NCBI GenBank assembly: GCA_017445845.1
Contig: JAFSRY010000046.1
Location: 1 to 37,047, forward strand
DNA length: 37,047 nucleotides
DNA from: Prevotella sp.
GTDB taxonomy: Bacteria; Bacteroidota; Bacteroidia; Bacteroidales; Bacteroidaceae
Reading direction: 5' to 3'
The first letter of the stretch is position 1; each line of letters begins with the position of its first letter. Positions 560 through 4,227 of this stretch are shown here, piece by piece. The notes beneath the pieces are model-generated. The model ran no database searches and was not told where the DNA came from. It saw nothing but the letters and a program-made list of their open reading frames with translations. The translations under genes and the position numbers were made by a program.

Positions 560-1894
560 ATGTTTGAAAATCTAAGTGAGAGACTTGAACGCTCGTTTAA
601 GATACTGAAGGGCGAAGGAAAGATTACCGAGATTAATGTTGCGGAAACCTTGAAGGATGTCCGTCGCGCGTTGTTGGATGCCGACGTCAACTACAAGGTC
701 GCCAAGACCTTCACCGACACCGTGAAGCAGAAGGCGTTGGGCATGAACGTGCTCACTGCCGTGAAGCCCGGACAGCTGATGGTGAAGCTGGTCCACGACG
801 AGTTGGCAGAACTCATGGGAGGCAAGGCCGCCGAGCTGAACCTCGAGGGCCATCCCGCCATCATCCTCATGTCGGGACTGCAAGGTTCCGGTAAGACTAC
901 CTTCTCGGGCAAGCTGGCCAACATGCTGAAGACCAAGCAGCACAAGCGTCCGCTGCTCGTGGCCTGCGACGTATATCGTCCTGCCGCCATCCAGCAGCTG
1001 CATGTCGTCGGCGAGAGTGTAGGCGTGGATGTCTACAGCGAGCCCGACAACAAGAATGTCGTAGAGATTGCCAACAATGCCATCCGCAAGGCCAAGCAGG
1101 AGAACTACAACATCGTCATCGTCGATACCGCCGGCCGACTGGCCGTCGACGAGGAGATGATGAACGAGATTGCTACCCTGAAGGAGGCCATCCACCCCGA
1201 TGAGACCCTGTTCGTGGTCGACTCGATGACAGGTCAGGATGCCGTCAACACTGCCAAGGAGTTCAACGACCGGCTGGACTTCGACGGTGTCGTGCTGACC
1301 AAGCTCGACGGCGACACCCGTGGTGGTGCAGCCCTCTCCATCCGCACTGTTGTGACGAAGCCCATCAAGTTCATCGGTACGGGCGAGAAGATGGAAGCCA
1401 TCGACGTGTTCCATCCCTCACGAATGGCCGACCGCATCCTTGGCATGGGCGACGTGGTATCGCTCGTAGAACGTGCACAGGCACAGTTCGACGAGGAGGA
1501 GGCGCGCCGACTGCAGAAGAAGATTGCCAAGGATAAGTTCGACTTCGACGACTTCCTCGGGCAGATCCAGCAGATCAAGAAGATGGGTAACCTGAAGGAA
1601 CTCGCCTCGATGATACCGGGCGTAGGCAAGCAGATCAAGGACCTCGACATCGACGACAATGCTTTCAAGGGCATCGAGGCCATCATCCAGAGTATGACTC
1701 CGAAGGAGCGTCAGAACCCCGACATCCTCAACCAAAGCCGTAAGCTGCGCATCGCCAAGGGCTCAGGCACCACCATCCAGGATGTCAACCGCCTCTTGAA
1801 GCAGTTCGACCAGACCCGCAAGATGATGAAGATGGTCAGCGGCATGGGGAAAGCCCACCCCTTCCGCCTCCCCAAGGGAGGGGCATTAAGATAG
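560..1894 (+). CDS. ffh: Signal recognition particle protein Ffh (SRP54)
   Basis: GTPase of the signal recognition particle. With SRP RNA it binds signal sequences of nascent inner-membrane and exported proteins and delivers ribosomes to FtsY. The N domain covers about residues 1-90. The G domain shows the P-loop GLQGSGKTT (106-114), DTAGR and TKLDGD motifs and the closing FIGTGEK signature. The methionine-rich M domain follows and carries the RKLRIAKGSGT RNA-binding segment. The start at 560 gives the normal family N-terminus. The last residues (AHPFRLPKGGALR) do not look like Ffh. They are encoded by a GC-rich palindromic repeat at 1851-1884, so the C-terminus seems to have been replaced when that repeat arrived. 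The M-domain core is intact, so function is probably kept. Confidence 0.98.
   Translation: MFENLSERLERSFKILKGEGKITEINVAETLKDVRRALLDADVNYKVAKTFTDTVKQKALGMNVLTAVKPGQLMVKLVHDELAELMGGKAAELNLEGHPAIILMSGLQGSGKTTFSGKLANMLKTKQHKRPLLVACDVYRPAAIQQLHVVGESVGVDVYSEPDNKNVVEIANNAIRKAKQENYNIVIVDTAGRLAVDEEMMNEIATLKEAIHPDETLFVVDSMTGQDAVNTAKEFNDRLDFDGVVLTKLDGDTRGGAALSIRTVVTKPIKFIGTGEKMEAIDVFHPSRMADRILGMGDVVSLVERAQAQFDEEEARRLQKKIAKDKFDFDDFLGQIQQIKKMGNLKELASMIPGVGKQIKDLDIDDNAFKGIEAIIQSMTPKERQNPDILNQSRKLRIAKGSGTTIQDVNRLLKQFDQTRKMMKMVSGMGKAHPFRLPKGGALR
1851..1884 (-). repeat. GC-rich palindromic repeat, left inverted copy
   Basis: Read on the minus strand, these 34 bases match 2344-2377 at 28 of 34 positions. Each copy contains a CCCCTCCC..GGGGAGG palindrome plus a G-rich tail. 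This copy lies inside the ffh frame and encodes its last residues. The two copies face inward around the DUF559 gene. Confidence 0.8.
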
Positions 1895-1910
1895 TCCGAA
1901 GGTAACTGGC

Positions 1911-2282
1911 ATGAGGCATAAATACCAAACATCTTCTGTTAATTATACCTTGTTGGAGACTTATGCGGTTGAAAACAGAAAGAATCCGACAGAGGCTGAG
2001 CGTGTATTATGGACCTATCTGAAGGGAGGTCAGTTAGGGGTTCATTTCCGCAGACAGCATGTCATTTTGGATTATATACCCGATTTCGTCTGCCTTTCAA
2101 AGCAGTTGATAATTGAGATAGATGGCGGTTATCATCTTGAAGGAGAACAACCGGAAAAAGATGCCCAACGTGCAGAAGAACTGTCAAAGTCTGGTTTTAA
2201 AGTACTAAGGTTTACAAACGAAGAGGTATTGTGTAACCTTGATTTTGTCTTAGAGGCGATATCGAAAGAAATAAAACAATGA
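1911..2282 (+). CDS. DUF559 (VSR/PD-(D/E)XK-like) endonuclease-domain protein
   Basis: A 123-residue protein filling one DUF559 domain, a family related to very-short-patch-repair and other restriction-like endonucleases. Typical family features are NPTEAERVLW near residue 25, FRRQHVILDYIPDFVC (46-61) with Asp54 and Asp58, and LIIEIDGGYH (66-75) with Glu69 and Asp71, the expected metal-binding acidic residues. VLRFTNEEVL near the C-terminus is also characteristic. The catalytic residues appear intact, so it is probably expressed and active. It starts 16 nt after the ffh stop and ends 30 nt before folD, so it is likely cotranscribed. It lies between inverted palindromic repeats and differs in base composition from its neighbours, pointing to acquisition. 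The substrate is unknown. Confidence 0.9.
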   Translation: MRHKYQTSSVNYTLLETYAVENRKNPTEAERVLWTYLKGGQLGVHFRRQHVILDYIPDFVCLSKQLIIEIDGGYHLEGEQPEKDAQRAEELSKSGFKVLRFTNEEVLCNLDFVLEAISKEIKQ

Positions 2283-2312
2283 GTCATTAAGGTGTATCTA
2301 AATAATAGATGA

Positions 2313-3248
2313 ATGGTAGAACGACAGAAAAAGCAAACTAAGCACCCCTCCCTTGGGGAGGGGCTGGGGGTGGGCCTCATTGACGGAAAGGCTACCTCGG
2401 CAGCCATCAAGGCCGAGATACGGAGTGAAGTGGAACAGATTGTGGCCCGCGGAGGCAAGCGACCCCATCTGGCCGCTGTCCTCGTCGGACACGACGGCGG
2501 CAGCGAGACCTACGTGAAGAACAAAGTGCTGGCATGCCAGGCCTGCGGCTTCGAGTCCACCCTCCTGCGCTACGAGGACGATGTCACCCAGGCCGAGCTC
2601 CTCGACAGCGTGGCAAGACTCAACGGCGACCCCGCCGTCGACGGTCTCATCGTCCAGCTGCCACTGCCCCGCCATATCGACGAACAAAAGATTACCGAAG
2701 CCATCGACCCCAGCAAGGATGTCGACGGCTTCCATCCCGTCAACGTCGGACGTATGGCCATCGGGCTGCCCTGCTTCGTGTCGGCAACGCCCCTCGGCAT
2801 CATGACCCTGCTCAGACGCTACGGCATCGAGACATCCGGCAAGAAGTGCGTCATACTCGGACGCTCAAACATCGTAGGCAAACCCATGGCACAGCTGATG
2901 ATGCAGAAACAGTATGGCGACGCCACCGTCACCGTCTGCCATTCCCATTCGCAGAACCTCAAGGAAGAATGCCGACAGGCGGACATCCTCATCGCTGCCA
3001 TCGGCCGACCCGACTTCGTGACAGCAGACATGGTCAAGCCTGGAGCCGTCGTCATCGATGTCGGTACCACGCGCGTCCCCGATGCCACCCGTAAGAGCGG
3101 CTTCCGGCTCAATGGCGACGTGAAGTTCGACGAGGTCGCCCCCCTCTGTTCCTATATCACGCCCGTGCCGGGTGGGGTAGGACCCATGACCATCTGCTCC
3201 CTCATGCAGAACACGCTGCAGGCGTATAAAATGAGGAATGAGAAATGA
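2313..3248 (+). CDS. folD: Bifunctional methylenetetrahydrofolate dehydrogenase/cyclohydrolase FolD
   Basis: Interconverts 5,10-methylene-, methenyl- and 10-formyl-tetrahydrofolate using NADP in the cytoplasm, feeding purine and formyl-Met synthesis. It has the catalytic Tyr67-x3-Lys71 (SETYVKNK), [10 protein letters not shown] (110-119), [10 protein letters not shown] (135-144), the nucleotide-binding [11 protein letters not shown] (181-191) and the closing PGGVGPMT motif. FolD normally begins near LIDGKA. Here about 21 extra residues ([16 protein letters not shown]) precede it, of which [11 protein letters not shown] comes from the right-hand palindromic repeat. No other in-frame ATG gives a normal start, so 2313 is chosen. 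The last residues (MRNEK) come from a 14-bp tandem repeat. The enzyme core is intact, and both ends are remodelled by repeats. Confidence 0.95.
2344..2377 (+). repeat. GC-rich palindromic repeat, right copy, inside folD 5' end
   Basis: Partner of the inverted copy at 1851-1884. It forms a CCCCTCCC/GGGAGGGG hairpin. At 2355-2374 it has four G-runs (4, 4, 5 and 3 G) separated by 1-2 bases, a pattern that could form a G-quadruplex in the coding strand and in the mRNA. It lies in frame within folD codons 11-21. Confidence 0.8.
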
Positions 3249-3531: not shown

Positions 3532-3539
3532 TATCTTTG
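3532..3539 (+). promoter_or_regulatory. Promoter -7 element TATCTTTG for the DUF6078 gene
   Basis: Exact TAnnTTTG match 33 bp before the ATG at 3573. A possible upstream in-frame TTG (3537) lies within this box, so it cannot be the start. Confidence 0.7.
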
Positions 3540-3572
3540 CATCGTCTAAAATCAAAATCAACAACAAATAAC

Positions 3573-4013
3573 ATGGAAAACATTGTAATCGACAAAAAAA
3601 TGGTGCCGCCAGGCTATGTGATGTGCTTCAACAGCGACTGTCCGCGGCATGGAGAATGCCTGCGGTGGATAGTAGGACAGCAGGCCAGTGACAACCTGCG
3701 AGTGGCAACGACCGTGCTGCCGTCAGTACTTAAACTCAGCCGATGCACCTATTATCGCAAGGCAGAGACCCAGCGGATGGCATGGGGATTCAGCAAACTC
3801 TTCGAAGACGTGAAACGCAAGGATGCCAAACCCCTGCGCGATGGCATGGTGAAATACCTCGGCGGCAACGGCACCTACTCACGCTACAGACTCGGCCGAA
3901 GAATGCTTTCGCCCCAGCAACAGGACTACATCCTCAACCTTTTCCGTCGCAGAGGCTACACCGAAGGGCTCGAATTCGACAACTACGTAACTACCTACGA
4001 CTTAGACCATTAA
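3573..4013 (+). CDS. DUF6078 family protein
   Basis: A 146-residue cytoplasmic protein of a Bacteroidetes family with no established function. Near the N-terminus lies a cysteine cluster, CFNSDCPRHGEC (about residues 16-27), followed by a Trp. This is the family hallmark and could bind metal. A Cys-x-YYRK motif, a helical middle part (WGFSKLFEDVKRKD) and the C-terminal GTYSRYRLGRRMLSPQQQDYI segment also fit the family. The ATG at 3573 follows a good promoter, and the gene appears monocistronic. An unusual 22-bp repeat array follows it downstream. Assigned from recalled family features, with no functional claim. Confidence 0.8.
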   Translation: MENIVIDKKMVPPGYVMCFNSDCPRHGECLRWIVGQQASDNLRVATTVLPSVLKLSRCTYYRKAETQRMAWGFSKLFEDVKRKDAKPLRDGMVKYLGGNGTYSRYRLGRRMLSPQQQDYILNLFRRRGYTEGLEFDNYVTTYDLDH

Positions 4014-4036: not shown

Positions 4037-4069
4037 CGTGACCAAAAATGAGACCCATTTTTGGTCACG
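4037..4069. repeat. Perfect hairpin at the head of the 22-bp array
   Basis: GTGACCAAAAATG (4038-4050) and CATTTTTGGTCAC (4056-4068) are exact complements around a 5-nt loop, extended by one more pair. It shares the GTGACCA / TGGTCAC words with the following tandem units and lies 25 bp after the DUF6078 stop. It has no T-run directly after it, so it could act as a transcript end or protein site. Confidence 0.75.
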
Positions 4070-4070
4070 T

Positions 4071-4158
4071 CGTGACCAGCCTTTGGTCTCATCGTGACCA
4101 GCCTTTGGTCTCATTGTGACCAGCCTTTGGTCTCATCGTGACCAGCCTTTGGTCTCAA
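4071..4158 (+). repeat. Four tandem 22-bp palindromic units
   Basis: Four units of CGTGACCAGCCTTTGGTCTCAT with three substitutions in total stand head to tail (starts 4071, 4093, 4115 and 4137). Each unit contains GACCA..TGGTC, so it forms a small hairpin. Spacing is 22 bp, about two helical turns. There are no spacers, so this is not CRISPR. A second, sequence-unrelated 22-bp array is at 21459-21546. Confidence 0.9.
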
Positions 4159-4227
4159 AAACAGTTTTCTTTTTCTTCCCATTGAAACCACAGCATCCCC
4201 TGTCTCGATGCTACTGTCCTATTCAAC

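Follow-up and report, generated by a model that had tools for sequence, protein, structure and literature searches.

Here, we found that a unit lying between ffh and folD in the window, i.e. the whole 37,047-nucleotide stretch of DNA that was analysed, is probably a mobile cassette bounded by REP-like palindromes, whose DUF559 protein would be the partner enzyme of the palindrome family. The cassette architecture is not special to ffh-folD. It recurs at many loci, and many of the palindromes have no gene between them.

The left arm of the unit (1853-1883, no strand assigned) consists of an outer box CCCACCCC, a linker and a hairpin core at 1867-1881, and the inverted right arm (2345-2375, likewise without strand) of a hairpin core at 2347-2361, a linker and an outer box GGGGTGGG; a repeat finder delimited these arms with a complementarity of 87%. 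An earlier, sequence-only reading had described two facing 34-bp palindromes. The inverted match stands, with 28 of 34 positions pairing up between arm 1851-1884 and the reverse complement of arm 2344-2377 (counted by hand), but the palindrome itself is confined to the inner ~15 bases of each arm, and the outer CCCACCCC box tags one side only. A pattern derived from the arms matched the window twice, once at each arm, vs no match in 100 shuffles. That reading's lone, A+T-richer nuclease gene was confirmed: the single ORF between the arms (1911-2282, + strand, 123 aa, included in an alignment of 18 sequences) lies in a stretch of lower G+C and is assigned to DUF559 by Pfam (E 3.5e-33). The chimeric ends of both neighbours were also recovered. 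The ffh ORF (560-1894) crosses the left arm and stops within the unit, the ffh tail and stop codon being coded by the element (1853-1894, + strand), while the folD ORF (2313-3248) starts inside the unit and then runs through the right arm, its start and an N-terminal extension being element-coded as well (2313-2375, + strand); relatives lacking the unit have native ends.

To describe the locus without the unit, we read the folD loci of 42 genomes, 30 of them best matches and 12 later picks chosen partly for long open frames. In 37 of the 42, ffh lies upstream of folD in the same direction, and four of these 37 carry the unit, all with the same right junction. The DUF559 gene is intact in the window and in G051, internally deleted beside an extra arm in G135, and lost in G110, where the right arm is still intact. 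The empty-site allele sought among relatives is present at 30 of the 37 loci, which have no REP within 160 bases before folD; G071 carries other palindromes, and two further loci have longer gaps (636 and 856 bases). In relatives without the unit, the native ffh end is longer and is followed by a gap and then by the native start of folD, and the insertion replaced the native ffh end, the gap and the first folD codons. At frr-rsgA, the window's genome carries a gene-less REP pair that is absent in 27 of the 29 relatives read. The closely related G026 and G003 hold frr-rsgA REP pairs of two different families, and the G026 pair resembles, by eye, the arms of a cassette of that same genome. Also by eye, the leuS REP pair of G129 (L169) lies just before the segment where G043 has a whole cassette (L050). 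Movement, which the sequence-only reading had deduced, gains empty-site alleles and related cassettes at other loci in its favour, and by such comparison the mobility of the putative cassette is well supported.

Is the combination of inverted arms and a DUF559 gene a common motif? We sampled, in the window's genus, 110 of the listed loci including the window's own (30 from the search and 80 fetched), taking the best matches first and then a selection of weaker ones; one flank was too short. With an inverted-arm score of at least 30 as threshold, arms were present at 99 of 109 loci (65/70 in the first batch, 34/39 in the second), vs 3 of 212 control windows displaced by 1000 bases within these loci. 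Arms were measured from the domain end, which gave the 65/70 of the first batch; a version measured from the ORF end gave 40/70, missing fused genes. At least 80 of the 150 genus genomes have a relative of the window's DUF559 protein. Among named Bacteroidota genomes, 57 of 78 loci had arms vs 2 of 293 controls, the loci being the best 80 of a longer list, 78 of them with enough flank. Armed loci include those of Segatella baroniae, Hoylesella timonensis, Flavobacterium cucumis, Mucilaginibacter (2/2), Chitinophaga and Ignavibacterium (1/2), and a hand-made subset of 26 named loci, mostly outside Prevotella and its kin, had arms in 13. Phylum-wide, tblastn was used to place the domain, and 18 of the 27 loci that could be tested were armed vs 1 of 52 controls (3 of 30 loci were too short for the test). 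In a plasmid collection, which extends the comparison to other phyla and from which 16 of 45 matching records were fetched, the count was 9 of 16 vs 0 of 32, with arms in Azospirillum (2/4), Sinorhizobium, Sphingobium, Sphingomonas, two Deinococcus, Pseudanabaena and, marginally, Neisseria, and arms below threshold in two Synechocystis, Shinella, Methylobacterium and E. coli. By this threshold, 10/109 genus, 21/78 named, 9/27 phylum-wide and 7/16 plasmid-collection loci lack arms. A phage collection held just two distant relatives of the protein, and at a second, distant DUF559 gene of the window's genome (C72) no palindromes were seen by eye.

The arms share a common plan despite their varying sequence, namely a GC-rich hairpin joined through a short linker to a C-rich outer box. 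A script found a perfect stem of at least 6 pairs in 172 of 186 arms (12 of 198 were dropped for length) vs 4.5% of shuffled sequences; the stems comprise 42 different sequences. Aligned arms vary in the length of loop and linker. The median element length is 532 bp, and in 26 of 70 cassettes the left end fits its own right end better than the right end of any other cassette. A GTAG tag is absent at the window's two arms, and GTAG or CTAC occurs in 21 of the 198 16-base outer-end windows of 99 cassettes, approximately at chance level; CGTC or GACG occurs at 1 of 198 outer ends. The DNA fold energy of single arms was ordinary relative to shuffles (z -0.48 and -1.05), and that of one REP pair was unusual (z -3.73).

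Outside the cassettes, palindromes of this design are dispersed without a gene. In the window's assembly (2.46 Mb, 75% complete), the hairpin core CCTCCCNNNGGGAGG has 8 sites vs 0 for its reversed control. Two of the sites are the arms of the unit, and the gene-less ones form inverted pairs with a shared spacer (C28, C45), direct tandem copies (C71) and one further site (C83). Across the genus, the REP pattern is present in 48 of 80 genomes with a DUF559 relative vs 14 of 70 without (Fisher 1e-6), and the reversed control gave 3 matches in total in 150 genomes. The association of palindromes with DUF559 genes, sought genome-wide, was thus found both beside the genes and across genomes. A looser pattern, which may count one repeat more than once, gave up to 280 matches per genome vs 0-3 for the control in 15 genomes picked as REP-bearing. 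Two REP-rich genomes have no detected DUF559 relative, G101 (47 matches, 73% complete) and G123 (14 matches, 86% complete). In five of nine genomes, the dispersed REPs include matches to the arms of that genome's own cassettes (in one of them, 1 of 10), in four they include none, and in six of the nine the arms of another genome match more of the dispersed REPs (permutation p 0.005). A one-to-one pairing of cassette arms and dispersed REPs within a genome is weakly supported.

In the alignment of 18 sequences, E30, D58, E69, D71 and H75 are invariant. A profile of these sequences matches PDB 3hrl (E 4.5e-33) and 3r3p, annotated 'Mobile intron protein' (E 1.2e-7), which we take to be I-Bth0305I. 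By this profile match the putative cassette nuclease is homologous to a homing endonuclease. The window protein matches the Vsr family TIGR00632 weakly (E 4.9e-4, far below the cut-off). The DUF559 protein of E. coli is presumably YcjD. A relationship of YcjD to Vsr is mentioned in an excerpt of PMC1189080, and an excerpt on EDxHD enzymes describes one that forms a dimer on a target of almost 60 base pairs (PMC3943268). A self-splicing intron around the DUF559 gene was considered and rejected, with no Rfam match at gathering score at 13 loci; the lone Rfam hit in the window, whalefall-1 at 2342-2375, is below the gathering score and is not an intron. No splicing domain (intein) was found in the 15 proteins or parts scanned.

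Many cassettes are read together with their neighbours. In 32 of 99, the DUF559 frame continues for at least 50 codons beyond the right arm into the next gene, and in 6 of 99 it is open on both sides. Pfam together with inspection by eye gave fusion partners including ArgB, TrmH, IspF, Gmk, RNase H, LeuS, GAF, a helicase and a DegT-type aminotransferase; for a tenth partner, Pfam gave no match. Where fused ispF loci were compared, ispF has lost its native start codon and translation passes through the arm as a linker, and five genomes carry a single REP in frame within ispF. At five loci of other classes, the DUF559 domain lies within MetH, HsdR, LeuS and two methylase frames that are otherwise continuous, with arms above threshold at three of them (MetH, HsdR and one methylase).

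The domain tree, built on 110 rows of which 74 carry no locus label, closely tracks the host locus, with 9 changes for 9 labelled groups vs a shuffled mean of 21.3. Nevertheless, its supported branches force at least three locus changes for gmk and two for argB, and a trmH cassette falls within the ispF group. As the tree follows the locus but forces changes, cassettes would for the most part remain or spread at a single site and occasionally switch site; the changes may represent arrivals or departures. In one same-site pair (G026/G124), the cassette is 96-100% identical and the flanks 77-85%, with a taper over 100-200 bases, a pattern as expected after homing with co-conversion. This pattern is clear in one of five same-site pairs and less clear in the other four. 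Among the first 70 cassettes, five pairs are more than 78% identical, and since all five are between different genomes, no recent within-genome copy was seen in this set.

The architecture and its recurrence, the empty and decayed alleles, the different loci and the co-occurrence come from comparison, and from them we infer that the nuclease would bind the palindrome, cut, and drive copying. Most likely, this Vsr- or homing-type nuclease would cut a palindrome-related site or a preferred target, and repair of the break would introduce a copy of a single REP, of a REP pair or of a whole cassette, with the loss of some target bases. The gene-less copies, single REPs as well as inverted pairs, would be non-autonomous members. 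The arms are readable in frame, such that copies inside or at the ends of genes could provide stop codons, start codons or linkers; because the arms are read through, these copies would survive in or at the ends of genes and be hard to delete.

The main conventional alternative takes the palindromes as ordinary REPs moved by a RAYT (Y1) transposase, with the DUF559 genes merely sheltering between two REPs. Indeed, the anatomy resembles the REP pairs that flank RAYT genes as described in two papers (PMC3733652, PMC6006769), and Y1 transposases are present in 76 of the 150 genus genomes. However, REPs show no association with them, occurring in 32 of 76 genomes with Y1 vs 30 of 74 without (odds ratio 1.07, p 0.87), Y1 had no match in the window's genome (G000, assembly 75% complete), and within a single cassette the left end matches the right. 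The alternative is weakened because this link to Y1 is missing, and we think it quite improbable. The association of the palindromes with DUF559, set against none with the Y1/RAYT family, instead agrees with the earlier proposal of a REP-type unit with a nuclease in place of RAYT. Could the enzyme instead be a free-standing homing endonuclease at fixed sites, homing only into cassette-less alleles of its own locus, with the palindromes as part of the insertion site or as an aid to recombination? Such pure fixed-site homing accounts for a domain tree that follows the locus and would fit the co-conversion-like pair and the homology to a homing nuclease, but it fails to account for gene-less palindromes of the same design that are widely dispersed, for cassettes of one branch at different loci, and for gmk and argB each holding cassettes of different branches; we regard it as unlikely.

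Hairpins can terminate transcription, which speaks for an explanation without mobility, in which a Vsr-like nuclease serves repair or defence, the palindromes are terminators or insulators, and selection acts on the gene context. It also fits the Caulobacter DUF559 protein VsrA, which, in an excerpt of PMC12907096, causes an SOS response without a methyltransferase. We hold this explanation to be very improbable in view of the empty alleles and different loci, the REPs inside reading frames, and the armed domain that MetH and HsdR contain in frame, a position at which a terminator would do harm. The terminal inverted repeats (TIRs) of a conventional transposon, with a transposase that went undetected and acts in trans, would equally produce inverted ends and empty sites. 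Yet no target site duplication is evident at ffh-folD (one locus, by eye), where host bases were replaced, and single arms stand alone in ispF, so that a TIR transposon seems highly improbable.

Like REP/REPIN-RAYT systems (REPtron), the proposed nuclease cassette has short hairpin repeats that are tagged on one side, occur singly or as inverted pairs, and flank one enzyme gene. It differs in its enzyme, a PD-(D/E)XK/Vsr-type nuclease and not an HUH tyrosine transposase, in its tag, a C-rich box and not GTAG, and in the many copies within reading frames. Parts of the REP literature give generally one full-length enzyme gene per REP repeat type (PMC6006769), and report one REP superfamily without a dedicated enzyme, the CGTC-tagged REPs as palindromic repeats without a known enzyme, and some enzyme-less palindromic repeats located inside genes (PMC3733652). 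Unlike the CGTC REPs, the DUF559 arms have no CGTC tag and have an associated enzyme gene. Rickettsia palindromic elements often insert in frame, according to an excerpt of PMC10969869, and by this description they are alike in entering protein genes in frame (here ispF, the fusions, MetH and HsdR) and unlike in that an enzyme gene is associated with the DUF559 cassette palindromes. The EDxHD homing endonucleases (I-Bth0305I) have the homologous nuclease domain and a counterpart to the co-conversion-like tract of one same-site pair, whereas the DUF559 gene has no intron or intein around it in the loci and proteins scanned and is bounded by dispersed palindromes. With the very-short-patch repair endonuclease Vsr the likeness ends at the weak TIGR00632 match, and the DUF559 gene, unlike Vsr, is carried in palindrome-bounded cassettes at many loci. 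REP-RAYT, EDxHD, CGTC and TIR elements each fail at least one feature, and the Rickettsia elements would be set apart by the enzyme gene that is associated here.

No publication linking DUF559 to palindromic repeats was found among open-licence papers, and the palindrome-bounded nuclease cassettes look like an undescribed kind of mobile DNA. We see even chances for the broader proposal, that they form a class of REP-type elements with a homing-type, restriction-like nuclease and not a transposase, which reaches at least Bacteroidota, Pseudomonadota, Deinococcota and Cyanobacteriota, enters essential genes in frame, and may supply the enzyme missing for orphan palindromic repeats. REPs are common across bacteria, and in the literature we found RAYT transposases are the enzymes to which they are linked. 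A nuclease partner, if true, would make the question of an enzyme for the enzyme-less REP superfamily directly testable. It would also illustrate a route by which selfish DNA reaches the coding frames of essential enzymes with no need for splicing, and would assign a function to many DUF559 proteins, still of unknown function in Pfam.

Finally, we compared 10 region pairs between near-related genomes. No new empty or filled site was seen inside these alignments, and the three clear REP differences within them each amount to one gained tandem unit (36, 39 and 39 bp), for which ordinary recombination can be sufficient. Some other gaps between near relatives fall in palindrome-like stretches.

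At the intergenic site between frr and rsgA, two close relatives (loci L394 and L395) carry pairs of inverted REPs, the short palindromic repeats of the cassette-arm design, that belong to two different families. Because REP pairs of different families share this one site, the arrangement suggests either a hot spot common to both families or the replacement of one REP family by another.

DUF559 genes bounded by REPs were also observed inside operons (loci L303 and L305), namely one within an NAD(P) transhydrogenase operon of Sphingomonas parapaucimobilis and one within a phenylacetate operon of Deinococcus psychrotolerans. At a further locus, L034, a REP unit is repeated five times in the same orientation next to a DUF559 gene, with a period of 88 bases (positions 1903-2273 of that locus).

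The right arm of the cassette, on its folD side, matched the Rfam family whalefall-1 below threshold (window 2342-2375); whalefall-1 may thus be another repeat of the same kind as the cassette arms.

Two other repeats were seen in the window. Upstream of ffh lies an A+T-rich direct repeat in two copies of about 110 bases each (234-344 and 417-527), and beyond the ORF at 3537-4013 a unit resembling GACCAGCCTTTGGTCTCATCGT was recognized by eye as a tandem repeat at approximately 4050-4160.
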